From positions 1 to 33,380 of the IMG/VR virus record IMGVR_UViG_3300011115_000910: 33,380 bases of DNA. The stretch is one strand, 5' to 3'. Of the stretch, positions 4,314 to 27,300 are shown one piece after another (within the stretch, counting starts at the first letter, position 1; every line of letters begins with the position of its first letter). This stretch comes from a virus. The notes under the pieces are model-generated. The model ran no database searches. It saw nothing but the letters and a program-made list of their open reading frames with translations, and was not told the origin of the DNA. The translations under genes and the position numbers were made by a program.

Positions 4314-4375
4314 CGCTACAGTAACAGCACAATATCCCCTAAGCCTCTTAACAATGCTCAAACAAGGGGATCACT

Positions 4376-4443
4376 GGCACTGAAGTGTTGGCACACGCCA
4401 GGCTCATAGCCTGGAATGCTGGGTTCGATTCCCAGCAGCGCCC
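4376..4443 (+). tRNA. tRNA-like gene, anticodon CAU, shortened D-arm
   Basis: Acceptor GGCACTG (4376-4382) pairs with CAGCGCC (4436-4442) at 6 of 7 positions. The D-arm GTGT-TGGC-ACAC has a 4-nt loop. The anticodon arm is CCAGG-CTCATAG-CCTGG with U33 and anticodon CAU. The T-arm CTGGG-TTCGATT-CCCAG is canonical. CCA is not encoded. At 67-68 nt with a tiny D-loop and one acceptor mismatch it is smaller than ordinary elongator tRNA-Met or tRNA-Ile(CAU), so it may be a minimised functional tRNA, a decaying copy, or an att-like tRNA remnant. It lies between nrdB and the phosphoesterase. Confidence 0.65.
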
Positions 4444-5867: not shown

Positions 5868-7247
5868 TTAACGCACTAAACTATTGAGCCAATCAATGTC
5901 CGAATCTTTAGACGCTTCCAAAATAGCTCCAGCAAGCGCAAATGCGTAATCGTCAATACCACTCTCCTTGCCACCAGTGACAGCCCATTGACCACTGCTT
6001 CTGTAGATAACACTAAGGTTCTTTAATTGCTTAACGGCTTTATCATGCGGGTATAGTTCAATCAATCCTGCGTTAAATAACTCTTTCATCTTTGAAAAAG
6101 CCTTCATTTTTGTACTAACTGACCAGGCTAATTCGGAAATAGGAAAATCTTTTGCCATCGCTTGAATGGTGCCAGAACTATTAAATTGGTCAAGAACTAT
6201 GCTTTCAAAATCGTATATACGATGATGCTCTTTGATCCACTCCTCTACCTTGGCAATGTTTACTTCCTTCTTTCCGCCAATGTCAAAGTCTGGATCGAAG
6301 GCGTGAAATTTATCAACTACCAGTCGATCCCCTTCATAATGAACAATGCAAGCCGTGTAGTCATCTCGCCCCACGCCACCACGCGCAGGGTCCAAAGCCA
6401 GCACATACGTGCCCATTAACTCTCGTTGCGGGAATAGTATTCCCCTGTCTTTGTTCACTGCCACATCAACAATCTCTGCGGCCAACAATGCAGAGTTATT
6501 TTTAGCAAATTGAGCGCCATATTCCACCCAAAATTTATCCGGATCGCGCTTAAGTTCAGCTTGCAAGAAGGGACAATCTAGGGGCAGGTTGGGGTTGACG
6601 GTCCACGTAGGTAGATTTTCCGCTTGCATGAAAGGATAGTTACCAGACGTAGCTTCGCAGTAATGTTGATAAAATAACCCGTCCGTCAAAAAAGGTGAAG
6701 ATAATTCAAGGATGCGACCATATTTACCAAATTGCGCGATAGATGGCGACAGTGCTTTATAAATAGCAGACGCACCTCTGTTGGCATCACCTTCCAAGGC
6801 GAAGCTCAATTCGTCCATGATGAGCATAACGACTGCTTTACCGCGAGACGCTCTAGCCGACGCCGGTATAGCCTGGAAAATACAATTATTACTGGTCCAG
6901 ATTTCAGTGGCTGTCTCTCTTGTCATCTCATCTGCCAACGGACTGTCCAGTAGCAATTGTCTAATGTTATTGAGAGCAAGTTTGGCCTGGCTCTGGTCGT
7001 TGGCAATGGTCAAAATATAAAACTTTTCAGACTTTCTGACGCGCCTCCTGTATTTTTCCTCTAGGACGAAGCAGGCATACAAAGCAGCAATTGAAGCCAT
7101 AAGCGTTTTGCCGCACCGTCGCCCCAGCGCCCACACTGCATGGGTTTTGTCGCCATCAAAATACGAATCAAGAATTCTCTTTTGTTCAGGCCAAAGCTCT
7201 AGCTGTAGAACTAGTTTTGCAAAGTCTGAACATTTAAGTGTCGTCAT
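5868..7247 (-). CDS. terL: Terminase large subunit (packaging ATPase-nuclease)
   Basis: TerL drives DNA into the prohead and cuts concatemers. The ATPase Walker A is GRRCGKT (42-48) and Walker B is MLIMDE (D145, E146). The RNase H-like nuclease has acidic residues in ALDPARGG (D286), VLDQFN (D353) and GIDDYA (D432/D433). The 459-aa length fits the family. The ATG at 7247 overlaps the stop of the upstream homing-endonuclease gene (ATGA). A clear small terminase subunit is not seen in the window. It is unusual that the terminase genes run opposite to portal and capsid genes, with a divergent start region at 8418-8463. Confidence 0.92.
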   Translation of the reverse strand: MTTLKCSDFAKLVLQLELWPEQKRILDSYFDGDKTHAVWALGRRCGKTLMASIAALYACFVLEEKYRRRVRKSEKFYILTIANDQSQAKLALNNIRQLLLDSPLADEMTRETATEIWTSNNCIFQAIPASARASRGKAVVMLIMDELSFALEGDANRGASAIYKALSPSIAQFGKYGRILELSSPFLTDGLFYQHYCEATSGNYPFMQAENLPTWTVNPNLPLDCPFLQAELKRDPDKFWVEYGAQFAKNNSALLAAEIVDVAVNKDRGILFPQRELMGTYVLALDPARGGVGRDDYTACIVHYEGDRLVVDKFHAFDPDFDIGGKKEVNIAKVEEWIKEHHRIYDFESIVLDQFNSSGTIQAMAKDFPISELAWSVSTKMKAFSKMKELFNAGLIELYPHDKAVKQLKNLSVIYRSSGQWAVTGGKESGIDDYAFALAGAILEASKDSDIDWLNSLVR

Positions 7248-7936
7248 CTAAGGCTCTCTAAAATTTCGACTCTCCATCCTTTGTGGTGCTTCCTACGTCC
7301 ACTTGCGACCAGGGAGAGGCAACCTTGGCGGAGATCGTGCTGGCTGGCAAATAGGGTCAAGCTGTGAGTTATATATTCCTCTCCAAAAGGTGAAATAAGT
7401 TTGTATTGATATACGGCGCTTTCAAGCGACCGTTTGCGCTTGAATTCGTCGGAATGCTTTCTGCCAAAGAAGTGATTGTTTTCCCCTTTTGACTTTTCGG
7501 ACATTTTTTGCAGTGTCTCTGGGGACTTTTTTCGTCCCCTTAACGCATCTCCAATCCTGCGCCTTGCTCCTGCACTTACTACTTTTCCCTTGTGAGCACG
7601 CGAAATCTTTTGCCTTCTTTCGTCTGTAATGACAACACCAGAAGAACCCTCCCCCCCATCGCTTTTATTGCGAAGACATCCAGTCCCTAAATCAATGCGC
7701 CCATACAAGGCAATGCAGTATCGCTCAAGATCAAAAGCCTGCTTTTCCGCAAGGCCTTCTTGAATATAAACCACCATACTTTTGTCTTTGGGCGGATTAG
7801 CGGCTCTGCCTTGGTTGCTTTTGACTCGATTACCGCTTCCTTTACCTATGTAATAAGGACTCCCTTTTTTACCGTGACTGGAATCCTTGATTCGCAGGTA
7901 CGCGTAAACATAAAATCGATTGGGGTCTTTATTCAT
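7244..7936 (-). CDS. GIY-YIG homing endonuclease with NUMOD3 repeats
   Basis: Residues 8-40 carry a GIY-YIG-type core (FYVYAYLR ... SPYYIGKGSGNR). Residues about 105-175 hold several NUMOD3-like DNA-binding repeats (ERRQKISRAHKGK; GDALRGRKKSPET; FFGRKHSDEFKRKRS). The C terminus is an IENR1/NUMOD1-like helix-turn-helix unit (FASQHDLRQGCLSLV ... HKGWRV). Such enzymes cut intron-less or intergenic target sites and copy themselves by repair. I chose ATG 7936 because it overlaps the upstream stop (ATGA); a start at 7963 would extend into the previous gene. It is a free-standing selfish gene wedged between the nuclease gene and terL, with 4-nt overlaps on both sides, so it has adapted to the operon. 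Confidence 0.85.
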   Translation of the reverse strand: MNKDPNRFYVYAYLRIKDSSHGKKGSPYYIGKGSGNRVKSNQGRAANPPKDKSMVVYIQEGLAEKQAFDLERYCIALYGRIDLGTGCLRNKSDGGEGSSGVVITDERRQKISRAHKGKVVSAGARRRIGDALRGRKKSPETLQKMSEKSKGENNHFFGRKHSDEFKRKRSLESAVYQYKLISPFGEEYITHSLTLFASQHDLRQGCLSLVASGRRKHHKGWRVEILESLR

Positions 7937-8418
7937 GACAAGGTTTCCATAGAGCGAAGACATTCTTTAGGCATGAAGTAAGCAGGTCGTCCTCTCGCCG
8001 GATCAGCCCAAAATCGCTCTTGCAAGGCTTCGTGTCCGTAGCACCAGCCGTGCAGCAAAGTCTGCTGGTTTTCAATAGTAACAAGAACAAACTTTCTCTG
8101 GGGATCGGAACCACGTTGAACGATTAAGTCATAGCACGCTTTACTGCGTGTTTTGACATCAATACCTGGCAAATCGTCGCTATTTTTCTTGGCCTCGGTT
8201 TCCCTGAACAATTCCCTTTTTAAGCCAAGATAGGAGGCGACGGCCATTTCCCCTGCCGCGCCAAGCAGGTGAATGTCCAGTGCTTTGCTGCCTTTCCACG
8301 CTCCGCCATTGCGCCCGCGCAAACCTTTGCTTTCGTTAAACCCTTGCCTACGCAGACCTTCTTTCACCGCTTGTTGACGCTCGTCTTCCGTGAAGACAAA
8401 TTCAATGGGAGTGGGCAT
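7933..8418 (-). CDS. Putative PD-(D/E)XK-type nuclease
   Basis: The 161-aa protein has the layout of a small restriction-endonuclease-like fold: helix with Glu (GAAGEMAVASYLGL, about 52-65), PGIDVKT (about 85-91) matching the D-x-K part of the catalytic motif, then KFVLVTI and WCYGHEA strands. Proteins like this are frequent beside terminase genes and could help mature DNA or degrade host DNA. The family match is by motif only, since the catalytic Glu/Asp spacing was not verified by structure. It is the first gene of the minus-strand packaging operon; its ATG (8418) is 45 bp from the divergent portal start. Confidence 0.5.
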   Translation of the reverse strand: MPTPIEFVFTEDERQQAVKEGLRRQGFNESKGLRGRNGGAWKGSKALDIHLLGAAGEMAVASYLGLKRELFRETEAKKNSDDLPGIDVKTRSKACYDLIVQRGSDPQRKFVLVTIENQQTLLHGWCYGHEALQERFWADPARGRPAYFMPKECLRSMETLS

Positions 8419-11025: not shown

Positions 11026-12249
11026 ATGGCGAAGATACTGTATTGTGGCGACAGCTTTGTCCAGACGGGCTTTGGGCGAGTGGCTGAATACTTGCTACCA
11101 GCTCTAGCCAAAGAGCATGAAGTGCATGTGCTGGCCGTTAACTTTCACGGCGACCACGACGAAGAAGCCATTAAATACAAAACTTACCCTGCCATGATTC
11201 ATGGCTCCGACCCGTTCGGCTCTCATCGCATTGGCGAGCTAGTGCAAACCATCAAGCCAGACTTGGTGTGGGTAACAAATGACTTATGGATTGGCATTAG
11301 CTTGTGGAATGCCGTGAAACCTTTCAAGGAGAAGATTGGCTTTAAGTTTTTTGTGTACACACCTATTGATAGTTATGGCATCTTTCCTGAACTTAACGAG
11401 CAAGTGAAGGAATGGGATGGACTTGCCACTTATACAGAATTTGGCAAAGAAGAGCTAATCAAGATGGGCTACGAAAAGCCTATTTCCGTTATCCCGCATG
11501 GCACGGACTTTAGTAAGTTCTTCCCCATGGACCCGCTCGAATGCCGCAAAGAATTGGGCGCACCAGAGGATGCTTTCATTGTTTTCAATGGCAATAGAAA
11601 TCAACCGCGCAAGCGCATTGACCTGACCATTAAAGCATTCATTAAATTTGCCAAGGATAAGCCTGATGCGCGATTGTGGCTCAATATGGGCGGCAAGGAC
11701 ATGGGATGGGAACTCATTCCATTGTTCAAACGAGTGGCGCGTGATGAAGGTTACAATCCAAAGGGCAAGTTAATTCTTACCAGTCCGCAGTTCTCTACAC
11801 ATAACTGTCTTCCCATTGAACAACTTAATAAAGTGTATAACGCTGTAGACATTGGCGTGAACACTTGCATTGGCGAAGGATGGGGCCTGGTAAATACTGA
11901 ACATGCTGCCACTGGCACCGCACAAGTGGTGCCTGATCACACAAGCTTGAAGGAGATTTTCAATGACATTCCACGAGCTGCTTGCAATGGTGCCGAAACT
12001 GATAGGAACTATGGCCTGGAGCGCTTGCTGCCTGATCCTGACAGCGTGGCTGACCTTCTTGATTTTTACTACCGAGATAGAGATGCTTTGAAAATTGATG
12101 GCGAATGGTGCCGTAGTCGCATTAATGAAAAGCAATTCACTTGGCCAGTAATTACCAAGAAAATGTTAAACATTGTAAACGAAGTGCTCAATGCAAAAGA
12201 AGAACAGCCAGAGTTCAAGGGCTTTGGCACCCCTGCAAAAATTGTTTAA
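11026..12249 (+). CDS. Glycosyltransferase, GT4-like (GT-B fold)
   Basis: It transfers a sugar from an activated donor to an unknown acceptor. The N-terminal half has the GT-B opening (ILYCGDSFVQTGFGRVAEYL). The C-terminal half carries the donor-binding signature: VIPHGTDFSKFFP, FNGNRNQPRKRIDLTIKAF (about 190-210), and the E-x7-E region GEGWGLVNTEHAATGTAQVV (about 284-305). The protein is soluble and has the usual family length (407 aa). It is the first gene of a six-gene sugar cassette inside the head operon. The 36-bp gap before it contains TTTGCCATTATC (10991-11002), one of several similar intergenic sequences. Confidence 0.88.
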   Translation: MAKILYCGDSFVQTGFGRVAEYLLPALAKEHEVHVLAVNFHGDHDEEAIKYKTYPAMIHGSDPFGSHRIGELVQTIKPDLVWVTNDLWIGISLWNAVKPFKEKIGFKFFVYTPIDSYGIFPELNEQVKEWDGLATYTEFGKEELIKMGYEKPISVIPHGTDFSKFFPMDPLECRKELGAPEDAFIVFNGNRNQPRKRIDLTIKAFIKFAKDKPDARLWLNMGGKDMGWELIPLFKRVARDEGYNPKGKLILTSPQFSTHNCLPIEQLNKVYNAVDIGVNTCIGEGWGLVNTEHAATGTAQVVPDHTSLKEIFNDIPRAACNGAETDRNYGLERLLPDPDSVADLLDFYYRDRDALKIDGEWCRSRINEKQFTWPVITKKMLNIVNEVLNAKEEQPEFKGFGTPAKIV

Positions 12250-12254
12250 TCATC

Positions 12255-12965
12255 ATGCAAATCTCACAAATCTTTCTTTCTGATGCCGGCACGGAACTGT
12301 CGCCGTTCCTGCAACATGCTACGGGCACAGTGCGACAAGCATTCCCCGAAGCGCAACATATTATTTACAACGAAGAAAGCCTCCGTGCCTTCATTGCAGA
12401 GAACTATGGCGCGGAAGTAGTTGGGGCTTATGACAAGCTCAAGCCCTATTCATACAAGGCGGATCTTGGTCGCTTCTGTCTGTTGAATACGCTTGGTGGT
12501 TGGTACATGGACATTGCCGTGAGAGTGGTCAATCCAGTGGAAGTTGGGCCTCGAATTAAATTCTTGGCCTTTAGAGACATTCAACGATTTAGTTACACTT
12601 CCTGGGCATGTGCCACTACTGTTTTGTATTCACAGCCCGACAATAAAGCTTTGCAGATTGCCATTGAAACCATTGTCCATAATTGCAAGGAAGAATACTA
12701 TGGCATCACTCCATTGTGCCCCACTGGCCCCACTCTTCTTGGCAGGGCGCTAGCAGCGCATGGCGGGCAGTCTGATTTCATCTACGGCGACTACCTAGAA
12801 CTGACTCCCACTTACGAACAGAAGAATCGTGCATTTATCTTGCCCGATGGCAGCATCATGGCATGGAGCAAGCCTTCTGGCGGCGGTGACCTAACTGGTC
12901 TTGGAGCCAAAGGCGTTAATAATTACAACGAACTTTGGGCGGCGAGAGAAGTTTATGCAGTCTAA
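12255..12965 (+). CDS. Glycosyltransferase, GT32-like (DXD sugar-binding domain)
   Basis: Residues 67-91 have the hallmark of the Gly_transf_sug/GT32 family: YKADLGRFCLLNTLGGWYMDIAV, where K-x-D, the G-G and the DXD region align. The second Asp of DXD is Ala here (D86-I87-A88), so metal coordination may differ or D86 alone may suffice. The 236-aa length fits. ATG 12255 is 5 bp after the upstream stop; the frame is open further upstream, but that region lies within the GT4 gene. The gene overlaps the next by 11 bp. Confidence 0.75.
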   Translation: MQISQIFLSDAGTELSPFLQHATGTVRQAFPEAQHIIYNEESLRAFIAENYGAEVVGAYDKLKPYSYKADLGRFCLLNTLGGWYMDIAVRVVNPVEVGPRIKFLAFRDIQRFSYTSWACATTVLYSQPDNKALQIAIETIVHNCKEEYYGITPLCPTGPTLLGRALAAHGGQSDFIYGDYLELTPTYEQKNRAFILPDGSIMAWSKPSGGGDLTGLGAKGVNNYNELWAAREVYAV

Positions 12966-13677
12966 AAATTTTCCAACTATTTATGCAGTGGCAATGGCCG
13001 ACAAGCCAATGCGCTACTCGTCTGACTTTCCATTGAAAACCATTATTGCACATGCGTGCAGTCTTTCCCCCGAAAAGCGTTTGGAGCTCGCCATGGAGGG
13101 ATGCTTCTTTGATGATGACTGCGATAACAATATTTCTGCGTTGAATCCATGGTGGGGAGAATTGACGGCCTTACACTGGCTAATACAGCAATCGTTGGAT
13201 GGCATTATTGGCAGCGCCCAGTACCGTCGTTTTTGGCCTGATGATTCCCTTTTGACCGTCTCCCCGAATGCTCTATACCTTTCGGAGCCATGCCTGTTTC
13301 CCTGTTCAATGGCAGATCAATTCAGGGGAGGTCACATGTTTCCCGGCGTAGAGTTGACAATGGAAGTGGCAAGGCAAAAGGACTTTCCTTTCACGGAAGC
13401 GGAAATGGCTCAGGTGTGGAGCTCCAACCGCTTCCAAGGAGGCCCCATGGCAGTTGGTTCGTGGCCGCTTTACCAGAAAATAATGAATGTATTATTTGAT
13501 TGCCTGTGGCCGATATGGCGCACTTATGGAAGCGCCATTCAAACTTTACAGGGCTATGATCAGCGAGCCATGGCTTTTCTCTCGGAACGCCTGCTTTCTG
13601 GCATTGTCCTAATGCAGGATAAATTTTTACCAGATATAACTTTGCGAACCATTCCCCTTCATTACATTGCACCTTGA
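12955..13677 (+). CDS. DUF4422-type glycosyltransferase-like protein
   Basis: Residues 55-95 match the DUF4422 family seen in capsular polysaccharide loci: DNNISALNPWWGELTALHWL (a conserved N-x3-GELTxLxW core) and GIIGSAQYRRFW (the 'HYRR' block, with Q in place of His). The family is believed to act as galactopyranose-type or related glycosyltransferases. ATG 12955 overlaps the previous stop by 11 bp; the longer frame from 12901 was rejected because it lies deep within the previous gene. The 240-aa length is typical. Confidence 0.7.
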   Translation: MQSKNFPTIYAVAMADKPMRYSSDFPLKTIIAHACSLSPEKRLELAMEGCFFDDDCDNNISALNPWWGELTALHWLIQQSLDGIIGSAQYRRFWPDDSLLTVSPNALYLSEPCLFPCSMADQFRGGHMFPGVELTMEVARQKDFPFTEAEMAQVWSSNRFQGGPMAVGSWPLYQKIMNVLFDCLWPIWRTYGSAIQTLQGYDQRAMAFLSERLLSGIVLMQDKFLPDITLRTIPLHYIAP

Positions 13678-13679
13678 GC

Positions 13680-14837
13680 ATGACGCGCACTCTTCTGGAC
13701 CTGGGCACGCAGCCACTGGTAAACAATTTGTGTCTTAGCGAGCGGGAATCAATGGAGGCAGAACAATTTCCATTGAAAGCCATCGTCGAAGAAGATTTGA
13801 CCATTCACTTGGATTATTCAGTCGATCCAGAGATTTTATACAAACACTATCTCTACAGAAGTGGAGTGAGTCAACCATATATTGACCATTGCAAACAACT
13901 CTATAAAAGTCTTTACCATCTCAATCTGTCAACGGTTATTGACGTGGGCGGTAATGATGGCACGCTATTAAACGCTTTCCGTGAAGCATCCAAAGAGAAT
14001 GAGTTTTGGAGCGGGACAAAGCCAACGCGCTTTATCAATGTAGATATGGGACAAAACTTGCGAGAGATGAATGAACTGGCAGGAAATGAATTTGTATGTG
14101 GACGATTTAACGATCAAATGGACCTGCCAAAGGCAAGTTTAATCGTCTCCACTAATGTATTTCAGCACACTAAAGATGTTCATGCTTTCATGCGTGGCAT
14201 TGTTAAATTTCTAGATGGTGTATGGGTGCTGGAATTTCCTTATACCTTGGAGACTATTGCCACTGGTCAGTTTGATCAATTTTACCACGAACATTATTAT
14301 TACTGGCTCATCTCTCCGTTGGAAAAACTGTTCCAAGAATATGGCCTAAGAATTATTGGATTTTTTCCACAGTCTATTCATGGTGGCACAATGCGACTTT
14401 GGATGACCAATAGAGAATTTGGCCCTCCAGCTATAGATTTATCTGCAATTCTAGAAAAAGAGCAAAAGGCTATTGATCTGTGCAATTTTGATCAAACCAT
14501 CGCTAATTTGCGCTGTTACTTTGATCGTATTTTGGCCACTAAAGAGCTTGGAAGAATTTGCTTCTTTGGCGCCGCAGCGAAGGGGTGTGTATTTCTCAAT
14601 GCCCTTAATATAAATGTCAATACGATGGGCAAGACAGTAGTTGTTGACGACACTGTTGAGAAGCAAGGACTGTATGTTCCTGGCACTGGCTTTCAAGTGG
14701 TTGATAGAAGTGCGTTAAAAGATTACGATACAATTATCATTCTTGCCCATAATTTTGCGGATTACATTGAGGCATCTTTGCGGAAAGATTTTAATGGTCG
14801 CATTATGACCTTACTTCCCATTGCAGATGACAAATAA
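13680..14837 (+). CDS. Sugar C-methyltransferase-like protein (SAM-dependent)
   Basis: Domain order matches NovU/TylC3-type nucleotide-sugar C-methyltransferases: a short N-terminal domain, a SAM-binding domain with VIDVGGNDGTLL (86-97), an EHYYYWLISPLEKL segment, and a C-terminal Rossmann-like half (FFGAAAKGCVFLNAL ... VVDDTVEKQGLYVPGTG). The N-terminal domain normally binds zinc through Cys pairs; here the expected cysteines are absent, leaving LLDLGTQPLVNNL and a degenerate remainder. ATG 13680 is preferred over TTG 13674, which overlaps the previous stop. It likely methylates a sugar or sugar nucleotide used by the neighbouring transferases. Confidence 0.78.
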   Translation: MTRTLLDLGTQPLVNNLCLSERESMEAEQFPLKAIVEEDLTIHLDYSVDPEILYKHYLYRSGVSQPYIDHCKQLYKSLYHLNLSTVIDVGGNDGTLLNAFREASKENEFWSGTKPTRFINVDMGQNLREMNELAGNEFVCGRFNDQMDLPKASLIVSTNVFQHTKDVHAFMRGIVKFLDGVWVLEFPYTLETIATGQFDQFYHEHYYYWLISPLEKLFQEYGLRIIGFFPQSIHGGTMRLWMTNREFGPPAIDLSAILEKEQKAIDLCNFDQTIANLRCYFDRILATKELGRICFFGAAAKGCVFLNALNINVNTMGKTVVVDDTVEKQGLYVPGTGFQVVDRSALKDYDTIIILAHNFADYIEASLRKDFNGRIMTLLPIADDK

Positions 14838-15447
14838 GGAACTAATCATTGTCTACCACTTGTTCCAATCTCATGACTGGGAGCAATTATTTAGCGAGCA
14901 AATAGGACTGCTTTTTATGAGCGGATTAATGGATAATGCGCGTTTGACGATTTCAATTAACGGACAGTCTCCAGTGCCTGCAATTGGCCACGAGACAATT
15001 TACAGAGCAGAAGGTTTCTCCGAAAAGCCATCTTTGCTGTTAGCCAGGCAATACGCGGAAGAATTTCCTAATTCGCAAATTCTTTATTTTCACAGTAAAG
15101 GCATTTCGCATCCCACCAAGAATCAAGATGATTGGCGTATGATGATGCAGCATTTTATCCTTGTGAAATGGCGGGAGGCCATTGCGTTGCTTGACAATCA
15201 CGATGGGGTAGGTGTAAATTGGAGAACATTCCCCGTTCCACATTCCTCTGGTAATTACTGGTGGGCGAATGCTTCTTTCCTGCGGCAACTGGACCCTGGT
15301 TTTCTAAACGATCATGACCGCATGAGTCAAGAATTTTGGATTGGCTCTGCAGGCGGCAATATTGCCAACATGTATGAGAGCAATTTAGACCACTACAATC
15401 AAGCTTGCCCATCCAGCAGCTATTGCCCTTCTTATTTCACACCATGA
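14827..15447 (+). CDS. Glycosyltransferase-like protein of the HSKG type
   Basis: The sequence has the block ILYFHSKGIS (about 80-90), a W-x3-M helix, VGVNWRTFPVPHSSGNYWWA (about 130-150) and RMSQEFWIGSAGG. This pattern recurs in uncharacterised glycosyltransferase-like proteins beside sugar genes in phages and marine bacteria. I cannot name a CAZy family. ATG 14827 overlaps the previous stop by 11 bp and the gene ends in an ATGA overlap with the following methyltransferase. The 206-aa protein is soluble and has no membrane anchor. Confidence 0.55.
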   Translation: MTNKELIIVYHLFQSHDWEQLFSEQIGLLFMSGLMDNARLTISINGQSPVPAIGHETIYRAEGFSEKPSLLLARQYAEEFPNSQILYFHSKGISHPTKNQDDWRMMMQHFILVKWREAIALLDNHDGVGVNWRTFPVPHSSGNYWWANASFLRQLDPGFLNDHDRMSQEFWIGSAGGNIANMYESNLDHYNQACPSSSYCPSYFTP

Positions 15448-16025
15448 ACCTTCGCGAAATTATTGCCCATTATGACATCAATGGCCACGAAAAAGATGGT
15501 GGCACGGACAAGGATACTTTCCATTCATACATTGAAATGTATGAACGTTTCCTTGCGCCATTGATTGACAAGCCTGCTGTTGTTGCAGAAATTGGCATTC
15601 AATATGGCGGGTCTATGTTGCTATGGCAAGATTACTTGCCACTGGCAAATTTTATCTATTTAGACAATGTGGACGCCATCCATGGCAAGATTCGCGAACA
15701 TCTTGACTTGAAGCGCTCTAAACTCTTGTTTGAAGATGCTTATACGGAAGCGGCGGCTGCAAAGGTTCAAGCATTGGCGCCTAAAGGTATTGATTTAATC
15801 GTGGACGATGGTCCCCATACGCTGGAGAGTCAATGCCAATTCCTTTCTCTTTATTTGCCATTGCTTTCTAAAAAAGGTGTGGCAATTATCGAAGACGTGC
15901 AAAGCGTTGATTGGCTGGCACCCTTGGAGCAGCGAGTCCCAGAGGGATTTGCTTTTGAAATCATTGACCTGCGTGACATTAAAGGGCGTTATGATGATTT
16001 GGTATTTGCAGTGACCAAACAATAG
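15444..16025 (+). CDS. Class I SAM-dependent methyltransferase
   Basis: The SAM fold is indicated by VVAEIGIQYGGSMLLW (motif I, about 44-59), FIYLDNVD (acidic end of strand 2), LIVDDGPH (about 117-124) and VAIIEDVQ. The DDGPHTLESQ block resembles the metal-dependent MycE/cephalosporin-hydroxylase group of sugar O-methyltransferases. At 193 aa it contains only the catalytic domain. It closes the sugar cassette and is translationally coupled to the previous gene by ATGA. It probably methylates a hydroxyl of a phage-attached glycan; this is inferred from context. Confidence 0.7.
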   Translation: MNLREIIAHYDINGHEKDGGTDKDTFHSYIEMYERFLAPLIDKPAVVAEIGIQYGGSMLLWQDYLPLANFIYLDNVDAIHGKIREHLDLKRSKLLFEDAYTEAAAAKVQALAPKGIDLIVDDGPHTLESQCQFLSLYLPLLSKKGVAIIEDVQSVDWLAPLEQRVPEGFAFEIIDLRDIKGRYDDLVFAVTKQ

Positions 16026-16041
16026 TCACTGCCTAATAATT

Positions 16042-16755
16042 ATGGAATGCCCCAGCGCAACTATTGACGGCCAAGTAAACCTTAAAAACCATCTCTATAC
16101 CATTCGAGTGGCTGGTCTTGGTCCTCCCAATTCCAATAATCCCAGTGATGTTTTTTGGGCAGACAAGGCAAGGCGGTGGGAAGTTGGAGACGCTGAGGCA
16201 CGATCACGCTTGTGCAGCAACTGTGGGCATTACATCTTTACTGACAAGATCAAAGAGTGCATGGCGCAACATGACAATATTACGCCTGACATGGTTGGCC
16301 CAGGATGGGTGGACACTCATGACTCCGGAGGCTGGTGCAATCTTTACAATATCACTTGCACCGCCCATCGAACTTGCGTAGACTGGGAATCTGGTGGTCC
16401 CGTTACAACGGAAACTGAAATGGAAAATCGCAATGACGCGGTAACGCCTAAATCCCAAAAGGCGAAGCAGGCCAAAATCGCCAAAGTGATGCGCGAATTC
16501 AAGGCGGGCACACTTAAAGGTAGCGGCGGGGAGGCGGTGAAAAGTCCTAAGCAGGCTCTTGCCATTGCTCTCTCCGAAGCTGGCATGTCCCGCAAGCCCA
16601 AGGCGGATATGAGCGACGAATATTACATGGGCTTTTTCAAGGAGATTGCAGGAGGAGAGGAGGAGAATGGAGAAGAAGAGGCAATGGATGAAAGCATTGG
16701 TGAGAAGCGTTGTAAGGCATATTTGAGCGCCGTCAAGGAAAACAAAAAAAAGTAG
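16042..16755 (+). CDS. Cys-rich (HiPIP-like) plus DUF6496 protein, zero-frame product
   Basis: The N-terminal third has six cysteines (C58, C61, C73, C99, C106, C112) in CSNCGH ... WCNLYNITC ... RTCVDW, resembling small iron-sulfur or zinc modules in phage structural proteins. Residues about 135-185 match DUF6496: QAKIAKVMREFKAGTLKGSG ... VKSPKQALAIALSEAG. The tail is acidic, then a KAYLSAVKENKKK end. The frame stops at TAG 16753-16755 immediately after an A8 run. A -1 shift at A AAA AAG (16746-16752) would bypass the stop and append 117 residues, giving a 354-aa protein. It sits between the sugar cassette and the capsid genes. Confidence 0.75.
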   Translation: MECPSATIDGQVNLKNHLYTIRVAGLGPPNSNNPSDVFWADKARRWEVGDAEARSRLCSNCGHYIFTDKIKECMAQHDNITPDMVGPGWVDTHDSGGWCNLYNITCTAHRTCVDWESGGPVTTETEMENRNDAVTPKSQKAKQAKIAKVMREFKAGTLKGSGGEAVKSPKQALAIALSEAGMSRKPKADMSDEYYMGFFKEIAGGEEENGEEEAMDESIGEKRCKAYLSAVKENKKK

Positions 16756-16784
16756 ACAGGGGCGACGCTGAATCGTTTGCCCCT
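16735..16784 (+). promoter_or_regulatory. Candidate -1 programmed frameshift signal
   Basis: The elements are arranged like those of bacterial dnaX. An internal Shine-Dalgarno-like AAGGA (16735-16739) lies 6 nt before the slippery heptamer A AAA AAG (16746-16752), which is in the correct zero-frame phase. Then come a 5-nt spacer (16753-16757) and a hairpin. Its outer stem AGGGGC (16758-16763) pairs with GCCCCT (16779-16784), and its inner stem GACG (16764-16767) pairs with CGTT (16774-16777, one G-U) around a 6-nt loop, with one bulged T (16778). The zero-frame stop directly follows the slip site. Confidence 0.65.
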
Positions 16785-17105
16785 CCATCGTCTGTACGGG
16801 CCGCAGCGCGTCGTGGGCTAGAACTGCGCAAGAAGCATGGCAAAGGCGGCCTGACGACGCAGGAAGCTGGCAAGCAGGGCATTGGTAGCGGAGTGGCCAG
16901 GGCTGGAGACTTAGCAGGCGGAGGGAAAATTAGTTTCGCCACAATTAAGCGCATGGTTGCATTCTTTTCTCGTCACGAGAAAAACAAGAGTGGTGGCGAA
17001 GATGATGCTGGTTACATCGCCTGGCAATTATGGGGCGGAGACGCTGGTAGGTCATGGGCCAATCGCATCATTAGGATGGTGGAAAGTCGCAAGTCCGACC
17101 AATGA
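16752..17105 (+). CDS. Frame -1 extension: RxAARRGLxLR ... FFSRHE domain
   Basis: This frame is open from 16716 to TGA 17103-17105. It encodes a domain commonly fused into phage head-associated proteins: SSVRAAARRGLELRKKHGKG, then GVARAGDLAGGGKISFATI, RMVAFFSRHE and AWQLWGGDAGRSWA. No ATG, GTG or TTG occurs in frame before GTG 16893, which would cut the domain in half. The domain therefore most likely arises by -1 frameshifting from the upstream gene (117 added residues). The alternative is a single-base error or mutation in the A8 tract. The next gene starts at 17102 with an ATGA overlap. Confidence 0.7.
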   Translation, partial: VDRGDAESFAPPSSVRAAARRGLELRKKHGKGGLTTQEAGKQGIGSGVARAGDLAGGGKISFATIKRMVAFFSRHEKNKSGGEDDAGYIAWQLWGGDAGRSWANRIIRMVESRKSDQ

Positions 17106-17410
17106 GCGAATACGTACGGGTGATTGAAGAGGAAGAAGAAGGCATTGGCATTATGAAAGCCTTGGCCATCCTTTCATCCAACGAGCATCGCAACACTTCG
17201 CAATGGCGTCTTGTTGAAGAACAGCATTTCAAGAATGGTCGCCTTGATGAAACTCACATTTATGTTGTGAATTATTACGACAGGCCCGACGAGCACTTTG
17301 AAGCTACCAAGTTTCTGATGTTTGAAGCAGAAGCAATGGCGAAAGCATACATTATGGAGAATCTCGAAGAGACTATTCGCTCCATTCAAGACGACGAAGA
17401 CGATGACTAA
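17102..17410 (+). CDS. Hypothetical acidic protein, 102 aa
   Basis: No family is recognised. It begins MSEYVRVIEEEEEGIG and ends in an acidic IQDDEDDD tail, with a central beta-like segment (WRLVEEQHFKNGRLDETHIY) and a helix (FLMFEAEAMAKAYIMENLEE). ATG 17102 overlaps the previous stop by four bases. The gene overlaps the convergent XRE gene by four bases at its end (17407-17410). Confidence 0.65.
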   Translation: MSEYVRVIEEEEEGIGIMKALAILSSNEHRNTSQWRLVEEQHFKNGRLDETHIYVVNYYDRPDEHFEATKFLMFEAEAMAKAYIMENLEETIRSIQDDEDDD

Positions 17411-17703
17411 TTTTCTATTGCGGAAACCACAAACGTAGGATAACCGAGGAGGTACAAAATAGAAAGCTGAAAAATAGAACTAAGAATACGAATTTGAGCG
17501 CAGTCAGGGGAGATTTGTCCACGTTCCATTCGTGAGATGGTGGTTTGGTCGCAATGGAGAATTCCTGCAATGTCCACTTGCGACAAGCCACAGTTTAGAC
17601 GTGCCTCCTTCATTCTTTGGCCAATAATTTGCCTACTTTCTTGAATGGTGACAATTGGCGCCTTGAGGCGAGTGGTGAGACGACGATGTTGAATGTTCTG
17701 CAT
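17407..17703 (-). CDS. XRE-family helix-turn-helix regulator
   Basis: Residues about 27-80 form a Cro/CI-type helix-turn-helix: IGQRMKEARLNCGLSQVDIA, then GILHCDQTTISRMERGQISP and LSSIFQLSILYLLG. The 98-aa size with no dimerisation or protease domain is Cro-like rather than CI-like. It lies alone on the minus strand inside the plus-strand head operon, divergent to the protease-scaffold gene, with an operator-like dyad between them (17730-17755). It may repress the downstream capsid genes and itself. No integrase is in view, so it does not prove lysogeny. Confidence 0.85.
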   Translation of the reverse strand: MQNIQHRRLTTRLKAPIVTIQESRQIIGQRMKEARLNCGLSQVDIAGILHCDQTTISRMERGQISPDCAQIRILSSIFQLSILYLLGYPTFVVSAIEN

Positions 17704-17764: not shown

Positions 17765-18958
17765 ATGAGCGACACATGCTTTCGTTACGATGTAGCGCCG
17801 ATTGACAGGTACGAGCTAACCCCTGAAGGTTATCTCCGTGCTTGGGCAACCATTGCACGCACTGGTGTTCAACATTACACCGCTGCCGATGGTTCCATTC
17901 GCCGTGAATATCGTCCCGAAACTGAAGTGGCGTCTCCCGAAAGCTTGGCCTCATTTGCGGGCAAAGCAATCACTCTTGAGCATCCTCCCGTCCTTCTAGA
18001 TAGTGCCAATACAAAGGACTATCAAGTTGGATTTAGTGGCACTGAAGTGGTTTATGACAACGGCTTTGTCCGTGCCGTCATGACCATTACAGATAAAGAA
18101 GCCATTGAACGTATCATGCGTGGTGATGCAAAAGAGGTCAGCGCTGGTTATCGCGTCAATTATGAAGCGATGCCTGGCGTAACTGACGGTGGTGAAAATT
18201 ACGATGGCATCCAAAAGGAAATCAGCGGAAATCACATTGCCGTGGTTCGTCGGGGCCGCGCTGGCCCGCAAGTGAAGCTTCATCTAGATCGTCTAGATGC
18301 TGCCGATCCTTCTCTAATTTCTCCTATTGAGGACCCATCTATGACTGCGAAAGTCAATTTTGATGGCGCCGAGTTTGAGGTGACCGAGAGCGTAGCTCTA
18401 GCAGTCACTAAAGAACGGGAAGACGCCAAAAAAAGCTACGAGGACATGAAAAAAATGTACGACGAGATGCTATCCAAAGCTTCCAAAGCAAAGGAAGAGA
18501 TGGATGCCATGGGCAAGGAAATGAAAGGCAAATGCGACTCCGCCGAAGGGCGTGCTGATGCACTTGCTGAAGAAGTGGAAAGCCTTAAGGCTTCCCTCGA
18601 ATCCGCCCAACTCGTGAATGTGGATGGCCTTGTCGAAGAGCGCATTGCTCTCATCGACAAAGCTCGCACTTCCCTGGATTCTGCTTTTGACTTTGCGGGC
18701 CTTTCAGCTCGTGAAATCATGGAAGCTTCCATTAAGGCTGTGCGCGGTGATGCTGATCTATCGGAGCGTTCCGATGATTATGTGACCGCCATGTTTGACA
18801 CTCTGGCCGAATCCGCCCCTCGTGGCGATTCTGCTTCCACTGAAGAACTGCGTAAAGCCGTTGCTTCCATTGTCTCTCCAATGTCTGCTCCTTCGTCCTA
18901 CATGGACAAGTTGCAGAATGCTTGGAAATCCCCTCTCTCCGTCTCTAAGGAGCGCTGA
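17765..18958 (+). CDS. Prohead protease (DUF2213-like) fused to scaffold
   Basis: Residues about 1-190 match the DUF2213-type phage protease: ELTPEGYLRAWATIARTGVQ, GKAITLEHPP, VRAVMTITDKEAIERIMRG, VSAGYRVNYE and HIAVVRRGRAG. Residues about 193-397 are an acidic, Lys/Glu/Ala-rich coiled-coil scaffold (REDAKKSYEDMKKMYDEML ... ADALAEEVESLKASLESA) with a short basic C-terminal end, where scaffolds contact the capsid. The protease removes scaffold and matures the capsid. The ATG at 17765 is the first after the divergent promoter region. An in-frame internal start at 18341 could give scaffold alone. Confidence 0.85.
   Translation: MSDTCFRYDVAPIDRYELTPEGYLRAWATIARTGVQHYTAADGSIRREYRPETEVASPESLASFAGKAITLEHPPVLLDSANTKDYQVGFSGTEVVYDNGFVRAVMTITDKEAIERIMRGDAKEVSAGYRVNYEAMPGVTDGGENYDGIQKEISGNHIAVVRRGRAGPQVKLHLDRLDAADPSLISPIEDPSMTAKVNFDGAEFEVTESVALAVTKEREDAKKSYEDMKKMYDEMLSKASKAKEEMDAMGKEMKGKCDSAEGRADALAEEVESLKASLESAQLVNVDGLVEERIALIDKARTSLDSAFDFAGLSAREIMEASIKAVRGDADLSERSDDYVTAMFDTLAESAPRGDSASTEELRKAVASIVSPMSAPSSYMDKLQNAWKSPLSVSKER
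18341..18958 (+). CDS. Possible nested scaffold protein from internal start
   Basis: ATG 18341 is in frame with the protease-scaffold gene (codon 193) and sits exactly at the domain boundary. GAGGA (18329-18333) precedes it by 7 nt, a good ribosome binding site. The product would be 205 aa of scaffold without protease, as in lambda C/Nu3. The start is inferred from the sequence and is not shown by expression. Confidence 0.45.
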   Translation: MTAKVNFDGAEFEVTESVALAVTKEREDAKKSYEDMKKMYDEMLSKASKAKEEMDAMGKEMKGKCDSAEGRADALAEEVESLKASLESAQLVNVDGLVEERIALIDKARTSLDSAFDFAGLSAREIMEASIKAVRGDADLSERSDDYVTAMFDTLAESAPRGDSASTEELRKAVASIVSPMSAPSSYMDKLQNAWKSPLSVSKER

Positions 18959-19536: not shown

Positions 19537-20451
19537 ATGTCTGATTTTCGTATGGACGACGCGGGTCTATTCCTCCAGCGTCAGCTTGAGTACATCCGCC
19601 CCCAAGTATTTGAAACTGTTTACGCAGACATCAAATACCCCACCCTGCTGCCTGTAACCAGCGAAGCTGGCCCTGGCGCACAAACCTTCACCTACCGCAT
19701 CATGGACTCCACTGGAGAGTTCAAACTGCTTGCGGATGCTGCTGACGATCTGCCCCGTGCCGATGTCAGCCAAGTGGAGAAGAGCATCAACATCCGGTCG
19801 TTTGGTGGTTCTTTCGGTTATACCGTTCAAGAACTGCGTGCCGCTCAAATGGCCAATATGGCCCTTGAGCAACGTCGCGCTGCCGCCGTTCGTCGCGCTT
19901 ACGAGGAGAAAGTTGAATCCGTTGCTATGTTCGGTGAATCCACCGTTGGCATGGCTGGCTTCTTCAACAACTCGACTGTTGACATCATCGCTGCCGATAA
20001 GTGGTTCACCGCCGCCACTATCACCGCTCAGGAAATGCTGGAACTGTTGAACTATGGCGTTAGCGCCATCATCAACGCTTCCTCCATGAAGGAGCAGCCC
20101 GACACCATCCTGCTGGCTTACGAGGACTACAGCGAAATCAGCACCACTCGCAATTCCGATTCTTCGGACGTGACTGTGCTGGAATACTTCCTTAGGACGA
20201 ATCCTTACATCCGTAACGTTGAGCCAATCAACCAACTGACCAAGGGCAAGAATAGTGGTCGTTTGTTCACTAACCGTATGGTGGTGTACAAGCGCGATCC
20301 TGAGAAAGTGCAACTGCACATTCCCCAGCCGCTGGAACTGTTCCCGCCTCAACAGCGTGGTCTTGAGTTTGTCGTGCCTGCTCACGCTCGCGTGGGTGGT
20401 GTGGCGCTCTACTACCCCAAGAGTGTCATCTACGTTCAGGCTTCGTCCTGA
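19537..20451 (+). CDS. Major capsid protein (DUF2184-like, HK97 fold)
   Basis: The 304-aa protein follows protease, scaffold and cement genes. It opens with a helical N-arm (DDAGLFLQRQLEYIRPQVFE), then AGPGAQTFTYRIMDSTGEFK, a long helix region (QMANMALEQRRAAAVRRAYE) and the P-loop-like GFFNNSTVDII. The ending LEFVVPAHARVGGVALYYPK is typical of DUF2184-type capsid proteins. GGAGG (19523-19527) before ATG 19537 is the strongest ribosome binding site of the region, fitting the need for hundreds of copies. Confidence 0.85.
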   Translation: MSDFRMDDAGLFLQRQLEYIRPQVFETVYADIKYPTLLPVTSEAGPGAQTFTYRIMDSTGEFKLLADAADDLPRADVSQVEKSINIRSFGGSFGYTVQELRAAQMANMALEQRRAAAVRRAYEEKVESVAMFGESTVGMAGFFNNSTVDIIAADKWFTAATITAQEMLELLNYGVSAIINASSMKEQPDTILLAYEDYSEISTTRNSDSSDVTVLEYFLRTNPYIRNVEPINQLTKGKNSGRLFTNRMVVYKRDPEKVQLHIPQPLELFPPQQRGLEFVVPAHARVGGVALYYPKSVIYVQASS

Positions 20452-23148: not shown

Positions 23149-23377
23149 CTACCTATGGAGCTCAGACGGACGCTGCCATGCCATTAATTGTCTTTACGAA
23201 GGAGCAAGCCTTGAAACTGGCATCCTTTGCCTTATGGCATTTCCAGAAGAGACTATTAGAATTGCAAACGAAGATCACTCTTTTTTAGTTGAAGTGCCTA
23301 AGGAATTTCGCTCTCAAAGCGAAAGGGTGAAGGTATTCAACGCCATCTTGAACGTCCTCGATCATGAGCAAGTATAG
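23138..23377 (+). CDS. Hypothetical protein, 79 aa, between neck and chaperone genes
   Basis: No family is recognised. It begins MQIDYLWSSDGRCHAINCLY and ends in a helix (ERVKVFNAILNVLDHEQV). ATG 23138 overlaps the previous stop (23146-23148), and the gene itself overlaps the chaperone start (23364) by 14 bp. The sequence appears protein-like and the overlaps argue that it is translated. Confidence 0.6.
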   Translation: MQIDYLWSSDGRCHAINCLYEGASLETGILCLMAFPEETIRIANEDHSFLVEVPKEFRSQSERVKVFNAILNVLDHEQV

Positions 23378-23909
23378 TTTCCTCCTCCAAAGCGAAGAGC
23401 CTGAATTTTTCGAGCTAACGCCGAAAGTGCGTTTGCGCAAGCATGGCGGATGGCTCGTTGCGGAAGGCATTGAGCAGGAAGAGCTGAGCAAGGCTCAAAG
23501 CCAAGCCACCATTCGCGCAGTGCAACTTGCAAAGCGCATTGCCACGGCCAAAGGCATTGCCCTTGACGAAGCCTTTGCTTTGCTTCAAGGCGGCGCTGAT
23601 ATGAGCGAGATGGAACTGCTCAGTGATTTCACTGAAGAAACCCTGGGCATGATTAACAGTGGCGGCAGCGTTGAAATTGGCAATGCACGCATGGTCACTG
23701 TTTTCATTCGTTGCCGTGGTGAAGGGCTGATTGAGGACGAATGGCAGTCCCTTGATGACTGGTCCATTGAAGACACTAAGGCCATGGGGCGACGAGTGAT
23801 CAGCAAGGGCATGGAATTCATCATGAGCGAGCAGGAGGCTGAGGCGAAAGAAGCGGGACAAGCAAAAAAAGCGCCCCGCAGGACGAAGGAAGTGTTGTCG
23901 AGCGACTAG
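23364..23909 (+). CDS. Tail assembly chaperone, short form (lambda G-like)
   Basis: It sits immediately before the tape measure gene and has the features of tail assembly chaperones: a small beta start (MSKYSFLLQSEEPEFFEL), a helical body and a charged tail (EQEAEAKEAGQAKKAPRRTK). The family typically produces a short and a frameshifted long protein, both of which bind the tape measure protein. Zero-frame GCA AAA AAA GCG at 23862-23873 contains the heptamer A AAA AAA in the correct phase. Zero-frame product 181 aa. Confidence 0.75.
   Translation: MSKYSFLLQSEEPEFFELTPKVRLRKHGGWLVAEGIEQEELSKAQSQATIRAVQLAKRIATAKGIALDEAFALLQGGADMSEMELLSDFTEETLGMINSGGSVEIGNARMVTVFIRCRGEGLIEDEWQSLDDWSIEDTKAMGRRVISKGMEFIMSEQEAEAKEAGQAKKAPRRTKEVLSSD
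23864..23870 (+). promoter_or_regulatory. Slippery site A AAA AAA for chaperone -1 frameshift
   Basis: The heptamer is phased X-XXY-YYZ relative to the G-like frame. After a -1 slip the ribosome enters a frame that stays open from 23870 to 24337. This corresponds to the conserved G/GT frameshift of long-tailed phages (lambda uses GGGAAAG). An obvious downstream hairpin is not seen. Confidence 0.75.
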
Positions 23910-24340
23910 AAAAACAGGCGCGGCAGTTCTTGAAAAGTTTGACAAAATGGGACGAGATTTACTTTCGCCTTAATGCTTCAGACTTAAAGGACAGACGATG
24001 GGAGGCAAACAATTTTGGCAAGCAGCGCGTGAAAGACGTGGTGGTTGCTTTGAAGTGGCTAGAGAAATATGACATCACGAAATACAATATCAATAGCATT
24101 TCTACGGCAAAGCTTGGCACCGTAGTAGTGGGAGCATTGGGCGGGAAGAAGGCAAGGGCGTCTGTTGATGATTTCCTGCCATTCGACACCAAGAAGATCA
24201 AGAAAGAGAATGGTCTGTCTGATGAAAGCTTGACAGTTCTTCAACGACTAATGCGCTCTAGAAGGATGGACGGACGAGTGATTGCCTTGCTTGCAGAAGA
24301 ATTAAAAACTGCATCATCGCGTGAACAATCCAGCGATTAG
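23870..24340 (+). CDS. Tail assembly chaperone frame -1 extension (lambda T-like)
   Basis: Read by -1 frameshift, this adds 156 residues to the first 169 of the G-like protein (325 aa in total). The junction reads KK-SAPQDEGSVVERLEKQARQF, continuing into LKSLTKWDEIYFRLNASD. The independent start available is only TTG 23930, without a ribosome binding site, which supports production by frameshift. The C-terminal part is helical and basic. The stop (24338-24340) lies 33 bp before the tape measure ATG. Confidence 0.75.
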   Translation, partial: SAPQDEGSVVERLEKQARQFLKSLTKWDEIYFRLNASDLKDRRWEANNFGKQRVKDVVVALKWLEKYDITKYNINSISTAKLGTVVVGALGGKKARASVDDFLPFDTKKIKKENGLSDESLTVLQRLMRSRRMDGRVIALLAEELKTASSREQSSD

Positions 24341-24373: not shown

Positions 24374-27300
24374 ATGGCTGCTCCTGAGCTAAGGCTTGAA
24401 GTATCTCTGAATCTTGCGGGCTTTCGCAATGAGGTGAGAAAGCTTACGCAGATAGCTCAAAGCGAGTTTGTGCCTAAAATTAATGTAAAATTTAATAGGC
24501 AAACATTAGACGCCGAATTAAATAATTTACAGCGTGCAATCAAGCGTCGCGTATATCGCGTAGAAATTGGCGGTAATATTGACTCACTGCCAGGCAAGAT
24601 TAAAGCCCTTAAGGAACAGTTAGCGTCCATTGAAAGCCTTAAAATTGACCTGGGTATTGGCGCGGTTAAGTCGCTCTCCAAGAAAGATGCCAGCAAGATT
24701 AAAAGTGATTTGCGTGCGGAAATATTGGGAGAGCAAAAAAAGTTATACATTCCCACGTCAATACAGGCCAAAATTAGTCGAGATGACGTTCGAAATTTTA
24801 AGAATGCTGTCAAGTCTAAACTTACTGGACTCTCTGTAGACGTAAAAGTCAACGCTAAGGGTGGTGGATTTGCTGGTTCCGAGCAGGGTGCTGCAGGGCT
24901 GATGCAATATATGCGTAGTCAGGGGATGGTCGGTAAAACCGCCTCTGGCATGGAAATGCGGCTGGGCAAAGGCGGCGATGACATAAAGCAGCAGCTTAGT
25001 GATGCTGTGCAATCCGCTGAAAAAATTAAGTCTGTTTTCGATGGCGTGGCTAAAAATATCGCCACCACCGGCAAGTCCATTGCAAACGTTCAAGGCAAAA
25101 GGCTTAGCTTGGCGAATGTTCCGCTCATTGCTGGATCAGTAGAAAAAAAGGTTGAACGCTCTGCAGAAGCAATCGGAGGAACAATGTCCCCTGATGCGCT
25201 GAAAGCCTTATACCCAGAAATAAACAAAACTATTGCTTCATTTGCCAGTCTTAAAGGGCAAATTCAACAAAACACTTCTAAACTTTCTGGTTTCAGTTTG
25301 ATAATTGGGCTAGCAGCTTTTGCAGGCGTTCCATTAGCTAAGAGCATTGTCAAACTCACAGGAAGCACTGACAATTTTGCAAAATTACTGGACAAACTTG
25401 GACCAAAATTAGAGGCAGCATTTGCTAAAGCTACTTCTGGTATCCTCAATAATGCGTCTAGTAGATTATTAAGTGGAGGCAGGCCAGCCGGCTTGCTACC
25501 TGCGGCTTATCGAGGCATCGGACCGTCTGCAGAGCCTGCAGGCTTATTGCCTCCTGCTTATCGAGGAATTGGCCCAAGTCGCAACGCCGGATCGCTTCCT
25601 GGCACTGCATTCGGAGGACAGAAATATCTCCCCACCGCGCTAGGAGAAGAACTGAAAGAGGTTTTGAGAGGTGCTGCGAATGCTTTCCTTGATTCGATTA
25701 GGCAAAATATTAGGGCTGTCACCGTAACCGACATGGGGGCGCCTCCGTCTCGGCAGGGCCTGCTGCAAGGCGGTTCTGTGGCGGGCTTTCTACCCGGAAG
25801 GGCGTCTGCTGCCAGCGTCCTGGAACTGAATAATATCCTGGCTGGAGCCATTCGCGAATACTTCAAATTGGTGGCTAGGGAAATTGAATACAGGTCGGGC
25901 TCAATAGGAAAAACCCCCTTATCTACCACCCCATTGCTAGAGCCGTCTCGCATCGCGGGATTGCTGCCCGGCAGGCCATCTGCCGCTAGCGTTTTAGAGC
26001 TGAATAATATCCTTGCGGGCGCCATTCGTGAATATTTTAAGGCAGTGGCAAGGGACGTGGCGGGGGCAGGAAGGGCGCCCATAGCGACCACCCCATTACT
26101 CTCCGCTGCCTCTCCCCGGAATCAATTGATGCTTCCTCCGGCAGGAGGAACGACCGCCAATTTGAATAGGCCGCGCACCACCACGGGAAGTTTCACGGGC
26201 AGGGGCTATGAGCCGCCAGGGGGATTTGCTTCCGATGGAATGCTAGGAGGAAGACAGGGGCCGGCAACGTTCATCGGAGCGGGCAGTCAAATGGAGAAAT
26301 TCAAGACTGTACCAGACGTGGCCACTGCCTCCACTCAAAACTTTAGAGCCAGTCAAATTCCTTTGATTGGCGGCATTAAAAGTCTTGCCGGGGAATTTGG
26401 AGAAGCCACAAAACAAGTGCTTTTGTACGGCACTGCGTATAAAGGACTGGCTTTCCTTATCAGTCTTCCGGGGCAAGTTCTCAACGCGGCCAAGAGTCAG
26501 CAACAATTCAACAATGGATTAAAAGTTGCCACTCAGGAAACGGGCACATTTGCCAAGGAACTTTTGTACGTGGACAATGTACAACGTGCATTCGGCTTAA
26601 ATCTTGAAACCACTCGCACGGGATTTACAAGGCTATATGCCTCCATGGCGCCAACGGGATTTGATTCTGGCTCCATTGAAAAACTCTTTACTGGCATAAG
26701 CGCAGCCACTGCATCCTTGCAACTGACACCAGACAAAGCTGAGCGCGTTATTTATGCCTTTGGGCAAATGGCAAGCAAAGGCCAAATCATGGCCGAAGAA
26801 CTGAAGGGGCAGTTGGGAGACGTTTTGCCAGGCGCCTTGGCAATCTTCTCTAGGGCCGCTGGAATGTCCGTCAAGGAGTTCAGCAAGGCGATGGAGGATG
26901 GGGAATTTACTGGCAATCGCTTTAGGGAGGTGTTTGCGAAAGTAAGTGACGAATTGATGAATCGCTTCGGCACCGGAGCACAGGTGGCCGGGAGATCGCT
27001 ACAGGGCTTAATTAATACAGTCGGAGGCGACTTCCAGCGCACGCTAGAAAGCTTTGCACCTCTCGCAAATGCCGCTGCTCAAGCAACACTAGGCCCTCTC
27101 ACGGGAATGCTGAGGGAAGTCTCCATGGCGGCGCAAATTGCCATGGGTGAGCAGGACAGAGTACGGAAACAATTGGAGGCAGCGCAAACAGACGTTTCTA
27201 CGCTCAAGGCCGGCGGCGCTGATGCAAAAGAAATTAAAGCTGCAGAGCAGAATGTTGCGGCGTTGGCGGCTAAGTATGAAGTGTTAAATGAGGCAGCCAG

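Follow-up and report, generated by a model that had tools for sequence, protein, structure and literature searches.

As judged from comparative sequence analysis, a cyanophage-like family of aquatic viruses very probably carries a programmed −1 ribosomal frameshift cassette in one of its head-module genes. Programmed −1 ribosomal frameshifting is strongly supported here by heptamer conservation, stem covariation, natural fusions and synteny. The heptamer, the covarying stem, the fused relatives and the head-module synteny also uphold the original prediction that such a shift joins a DUF6496 protein to a downstream domain.

Frame layout in the source window

The window analyzed in this study is an IMG/VR virus record, taken over its whole length of 33,380 bases, and the nearest cultured relative found was Synechococcus phage S-CBS4. 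The zero-frame ORF (16042..16755, + strand) encodes 237 aa—a Cys-rich N-terminal part spanning residues ~1-126, DUF6496 at residues 139-180 and a Glu/Lys-rich tail—and ends with the codons AAC AAA AAA AAG TAG. The slippery heptamer A AAA AAG (16746..16752, +) lies in phase within a run of eight A (16744-16751) and is directly abutted by the zero-frame stop TAG (16753..16755, +); one sense codon separates the two in most relatives. Both the terminal TAG and the in-phase heptamer had been claimed from the letters of the window, and the coordinates of the ORF and the slip site agree with that claim. The −1 frame, reading VDRGDAESFAPPSSVRAAARRG...ESRKSDQ, is open from 16716 to 17105, and its earliest ATG, GTG or TTG is the GTG at position 16893, 49 codons beyond the heptamer, as expected from the proposal of an open frame lacking an early start. 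The extension that would be added by a shift (16752..17105, +) thus has no early start codon; it comprises 117 residues plus a stop and is predicted to be all-helical and phrog_2859-like. The expected products are therefore 237 aa (zero frame) and 354 aa (237+117, shifted), and the ORF coordinates give the same lengths that had been put forward for the two predicted forms.

The assignment of the upstream protein to DUF6496 was equally sound, with a PF20106 match of 36.4 bits against a Pfam cut-off of 24. In most relatives, the zero-frame part measures 67-115 aa and begins with DUF6496; the Cys-rich N-terminal part (~126 aa) was seen in the window and in loci L082/L083 and L084. This part resembles phage proteins annotated as 'high potential iron-sulfur protein', has no Pfam match and was modeled with low confidence (pLDDT 44.5). 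The structure model of the 237-aa zero-frame protein, with a pLDDT of 44.5, was unusable and was set aside.

Distribution of the split and fused layouts

To place the window among its relatives, 160 loci were gathered by similarity to the −1 domain using the window and S-CBS4 as queries, a further 4 were reached through similarity to the upstream part, and annotated phage records were added; 117 non-redundant loci were left once duplicates had been removed. The split layout—a DUF6496 ORF with the domain in the −1 frame—occurs in 90 of the 117, and both parts are fused in one frame in 19. Two loci have the domain in the +1 frame, owing to single-base differences at the slip tract, and the DUF6496 part was not detectable in the remaining six. 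Cultured phage S-CBS4 carries the split layout as gp018/gp019, which GenBank annotates as two hypothetical proteins, the second ORF starting inside the domain. A scan of genome contigs for cellular or prophage homologues returned only two MAG contigs (L173 and L174), and the former repeats the A AAA AAG/TAG layout. Alignment of the homologues thus bears out what the original prediction had anticipated, as the heptamer, a 6-nt spacer and the stem are kept in split relatives and fused homologues exist (19/117).

Conservation of the slip site

An in-phase X XXY YYZ heptamer was found at the frame junction in all 90 split relatives, with the composition A AAA AAG in 67, G GGA AAG in 18 and C CCA AAG in five. 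The zero-frame stop follows at a distance of 0 or 1 codon in 88/90 of these loci (directly in 8, one codon later in 80). As a background, in-phase heptamers occupied 13 of 8,711 codon positions within the 300 nt upstream of the sites. We also scanned viral contigs with a pattern that fixed only AAAG within the heptamer and some of the stem region, which yielded at least 120 stretches. Among the matches listed, a homotriplet XXX preceded AAAG in 88 of 89 unique stretches, where chance would give 1 in 16, and the stem had 7/7 pairs in 82 and 6/7 in 7 of the 89; since these loci overlap the first locus set, the figures represent a less biased count and not an independent sample. Most A-type sites hold only six A. 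All three heptamer types share an invariant Lys codon, AAG, in the A site, which fits the expected tandem slippage with its move from AAG to AAA; in E. coli, this property is what renders A AAA AAG so prone to slip (PMC5009743).

A few loci depart from this scheme. The slip tract is one base shorter in L115 (near 2480-2501) and in L165 (near 2230-2249), and L272, which the pattern scan recovered, shares the short tract of L115. Together with L005, a fusion described below, these loci may represent either sequence errors or natural variants.

A covarying stem-loop downstream of the heptamer

In the window, the predicted stimulatory stem-loop (16759..16783, +) pairs positions 16759-16765 with 16777-16783 after a 6-nt spacer. 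A hairpin of 10 pairs with one bulge, starting 5 nt downstream of the heptamer, had been described for this region; a stem is indeed present, but only a 7-bp core is conserved, the extra pairs are not, and this core begins 6 nt past the heptamer. Across 40 representative sequences, 99.3% of the cells in the 7-bp stem were paired and its covariation score was 0.214, as compared to 0.007-0.096 for slid controls, and RNAalifold recovered the same stem unaided. Folded from the window alone, the hairpin has an energy of −17.3 kcal/mol and is only moderately better than shuffles (z-score −1.7), so the stem becomes convincing only through comparison.

Central to the covariation is the pair that a Gly codon, through its silent third base, forms with the opening base of an Ala/Ser codon; it is C-G in 48 cases, A-U in 29, U-G in six and G-U in one, with six unpaired. 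Gly GGC co-occurs with Ala GCC (46 cases), and Gly GGA with Ser TCC/TCT (29). This tracking between codons is the mark, at the level of sequence comparison, of RNA-level selection acting via a silent site. In locus L112, a G-C stem pair has become A-U even though two amino acids change as a result.

The Shine-Dalgarno (SD)-like AAGGA proposed as an upstream stimulator is present in the window (16735..16739, +), 6 nt 5' of the slip site, but it is probably incidental and is not conserved among relatives: an SD-like 5-mer occurs 3-14 nt upstream of the site in 30 of 90 relatives, compared with 23 of 90 in a control placed 15 nt further upstream. Glu-rich coding (GAG GAA) probably explains this background. 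Hence, of the dnaX-type stimulators that had been invoked, the heptamer and the stem are conserved and the upstream SD-like element is not.

In-frame fusions as a natural control

The in-frame fusions are a natural control for the RNA-level signal. The 19 fused relatives code for nearly the same amino acids at the junction (RGDAESFSPP), and the slip tract is absent from that junction in all of them but L005. Most have also lost the stem, some of its pairs forming in only 6, 10 and 8 of the 19, and the median minimum free energy is −4.7 kcal/mol in fused relatives versus −15.7 kcal/mol in split ones. The exception, L005 (near 2988-3001), has one extra A and an intact stem. On a tree of the domain DNA, the fused and shifted states need at least nine changes, four of which are forced by well-supported branches; the heptamer types also interchange on this tree, which is only partly resolved.

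Coding selection and occurrence of the −1 domain

Within the −1 frame, ahead of the usual first start codon, heterozygosity at codon positions 1, 2 and 3 was 0.106, 0.042 and 0.504, respectively. Such position-3-heavy variation indicates selection on the encoded protein already in this early stretch, and the first −1 start codon lies more than 15 codons beyond the heptamer in 65 of 90 loci.

The domain matches the profile phrog_2859 (E 1.8e-15), and its model is all-helical with a pLDDT of 90.3. A fold search of the PDB gave no significant Foldseek match and a best VIA Z of 4.4, and nothing was found by sequence search of the PDB or in NCBIfam. Other Foldseek matches of the domain were to prohead protease, XkdF and portal proteins. 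Profile, sequence and fold comparisons show that the domain is also appended, in other phages, to prohead proteases, XkdF-type proteases, portals and capsid proteins, with carriers that include Limnohabitans DC31, Vibrio 1.270.A, Roseobacter CRP-811, Actinomycetia DSL-LC01, haloviruses, S-CBS1 and S-CBS3. These matches on protease, portal and capsid proteins, together with the head-module synteny described below, substantiate the suggestion that the start-less domain is head-associated. As a separate observation, the domain behaves as a promiscuous helical module, which we also encountered on Dps-like and ParB-like phage proteins (one example being L086, 6001-6345).

Genomic context

The order of genes is the frameshift gene, a small ORF, a DUF2213 protease, cement and major capsid. 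The small conserved ORF (17102..17410, +) overlaps the end of the −1 domain, with a median offset of 0 from the domain end across 273 loci. The head-module context is provided by the DUF2213 head maturation protease/scaffold gene (17765..18958, +) and the major capsid protein (MCP) gene (19537..20451, +); among loci with enough downstream sequence, the DUF2213 gene was present in 154/158 and the MCP gene in 40/40. The tape measure gene lies at 24374-30013, with the frameshift gene 7 kb upstream and so not directly adjacent to it.

We also observed a further candidate slip site at 23864-23870 (+), upstream of the tape measure gene, where A AAA AAA followed by G stands in phase with the ORF 23364-23909 and the −1 frame is open into 23930-24340; by its sequence and position, this is likely the conventional tail-chaperone frameshift site of the window itself. 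Other features of the window include ~5 kb of glycosyltransferase- and methyltransferase-like ORFs (11026-16025, +) inserted after the portal/MuF-like genes and before the frameshift gene, a shorter version of which occupies the same place in S-CBS4. An XRE-type regulator-like ORF (17407-17703, −) sits within the head module, and gp021 of S-CBS4, labeled 'transcriptional regulator', is found in the same place. Further upstream, an abiF RNA (RF03085, 48.2 bits against a cut-off of 37) at 4335-4371 (+) is directly followed by a tRNA-Met (CAT) at 4376-4443 (+), and no Abi gene was noticed adjoining this pair of abiF RNA and phage tRNA. A GIY-YIG homing endonuclease-like ORF (7244-7963, −), judged by eye, adjoins a terminase-like ORF (5868-7247, −).

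Proposed mechanism and alternative explanations

Most ribosomes would halt at the zero-frame stop and release the short DUF6496 protein. Some would pause at the 7-bp stem-loop located 6 nt downstream of the heptamer, move back one base on X XXY YYZ and enter the −1 frame—thereby adding a helical domain of ~115 aa to the DUF6496 protein. In the resulting long form, DUF6496 and the added domain would work together in a single chain, while its more abundant partner, or a means of dosage control, could be the short form. The cis signals and their conservation are observed; the slippage, its efficiency, the abundances of the products and a role in head assembly are what we infer.

Could the fused product arise by other means? 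Transcriptional slippage, in which RNA polymerase would add one A on the A8 run and produce an in-frame fusion mRNA, is suggested by the A8 tract of the window, by L005—where one more A makes a natural in-frame fusion—and by the known slippage of runs of ~9 A in bacteria (PMC5009743). Nevertheless, the heptamer is GGGAAAG or CCCAAAG, without a long homopolymer, in 23 of 90 relatives, and most A-type sites have six A; such slippage, moreover, needs neither a strict codon phase nor a stem that covaries and keeps a constant distance of 6 nt. Because the GGGAAAG and CCCAAAG sites share phase and spacing in spite of lacking a long homopolymer, and because the stem is selected, the shift appears to be ribosomal rather than transcriptional, and we consider the transcriptional explanation very unlikely, even if the A8 tract might add some transcriptional slippage in the window. 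Less probable still are two separate, translationally coupled genes, with the domain starting independently at an internal GTG or at a non-standard codon such as a CTG near the stop. Such an arrangement would suit the annotation of S-CBS4 as two ORFs, the second beginning within the domain, and the many A-type sites that read GCG CTG AGG in the −1 frame right after the slip. Yet the window has GTA GAC AGG and no CTG, the conserved RGDAESFxPPSSVRAAARRG precedes any ATG, GTG or TTG in 65 of 90 loci, and the natural fusions show both parts working as one protein; coupling, besides, requires neither the heptamer nor its phase.

Homopolymers are error-prone, and L005, L115 and L165 differ by single bases at the tract, as a wrong A8 length in a gene of one true frame—or decay of a frameshifted gene—might produce. 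Against this, the same frame break recurs in 90 distinct loci from many samples as well as in cultured S-CBS4, and neither error nor decay would yield a stop 0-1 codon past three heptamer compositions or variation at codon position 3 in the −1 frame. The same slip signal in ~90 different relatives must therefore be real, and error or decay, to which we assign practically no chance, is already refuted for the family.

With programmed −1 ribosomal frameshifting as the preferred explanation, the long form would most likely act as a minor component of head assembly or maturation, on the basis of the gene position and of the domain being appended to head proteins elsewhere; this assignment is less certain than the frameshift itself. 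A more specific scheme, which we regard as possible and advance tentatively, would make the gene a head-assembly counterpart of the tail chaperone pair G/GT: the short form would be in excess, the long form would carry a domain docking to the procapsid (via protease, portal or MCP), the frameshift would set their ratio, and lineages would have switched repeatedly between such ratio control and a plain fusion.

Comparison with known recoding systems

The earlier view that the known phage frameshift sits in tail chaperones proved too narrow, as cases in head or tail-shaft proteins have also been reported, namely gene 10 of T3/T7, Lactobacillus phage A2 and Listeria phages A118, A500 and PSA (PMC5009743). 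The gene family studied here is similar to these in that a shift near the end of a head-region gene would give a minority of the protein copies an additional C-terminal domain. The shifts are −1 in T3/T7, A2 and A118/A500 and +1 in PSA (PMC5009743). In T3/T7, A2 and the Listeria phages, however, it is the major coat protein that is extended, often by an Ig-like part; here, a small DUF6496 protein is combined with an all-helical, phrog_2859-like domain. The resemblance to the T3/T7 and A2 extensions and to lambda G/GT draws on the Hardycor1 paper (PMC7911831) together with PMC5009743.

Lambda G/GT likewise involves a late-module phage gene with a shift near its 3' end and both short and long products; unlike lambda G/GT, the gene described here is located in the head module, before DUF2213, cement and MCP, and not beside the tape measure gene. 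The G GGA AAG heptamer used by part of the family is also the lambda slip site. The likeness to E. coli dnaX extends to the A AAA AAG heptamer, to tandem slippage in phase and to a hairpin that follows after a short spacer. In dnaX, the shift makes a shorter product and the upstream SD is a major stimulator (PMC5009743), whereas in the present family the shift would lead to a longer product, the SD is not conserved and the proteins are unrelated. The cso2 (csoS2) gene offers another example of a stem-loop-stimulated −1 shift without an upstream SD, with only some species predicted to frameshift (PMC5009743); it differs in being a cellular gene of the carboxysome operon, and no sequence relation is to be expected.

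No earlier description of a frameshift between DUF6496 and the −1 domain was found in the open-access literature searched, and while frameshifting in phages is well known, the DUF6496 gene family appears to be so far undescribed as a case of recoding. More than 100 viral contigs contain the family, and in S-CBS4, the cultured phage in which it was found, this locus has been annotated as two unrelated ORFs. Three interchangeable heptamers, a stem covarying through a silent site and fused sister lineages form a clean natural data set, which bears on how frameshift signals evolve and on which parts of the signal are needed. The family also gives a handle on DUF6496 and on a widespread helical domain of phage head proteins, for which no solved structure was found. 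Set beside these known systems, the mechanism is that of an ordinary −1 programmed frameshift cassette whose signals are of the phage type, placed in a gene different from the known ones.
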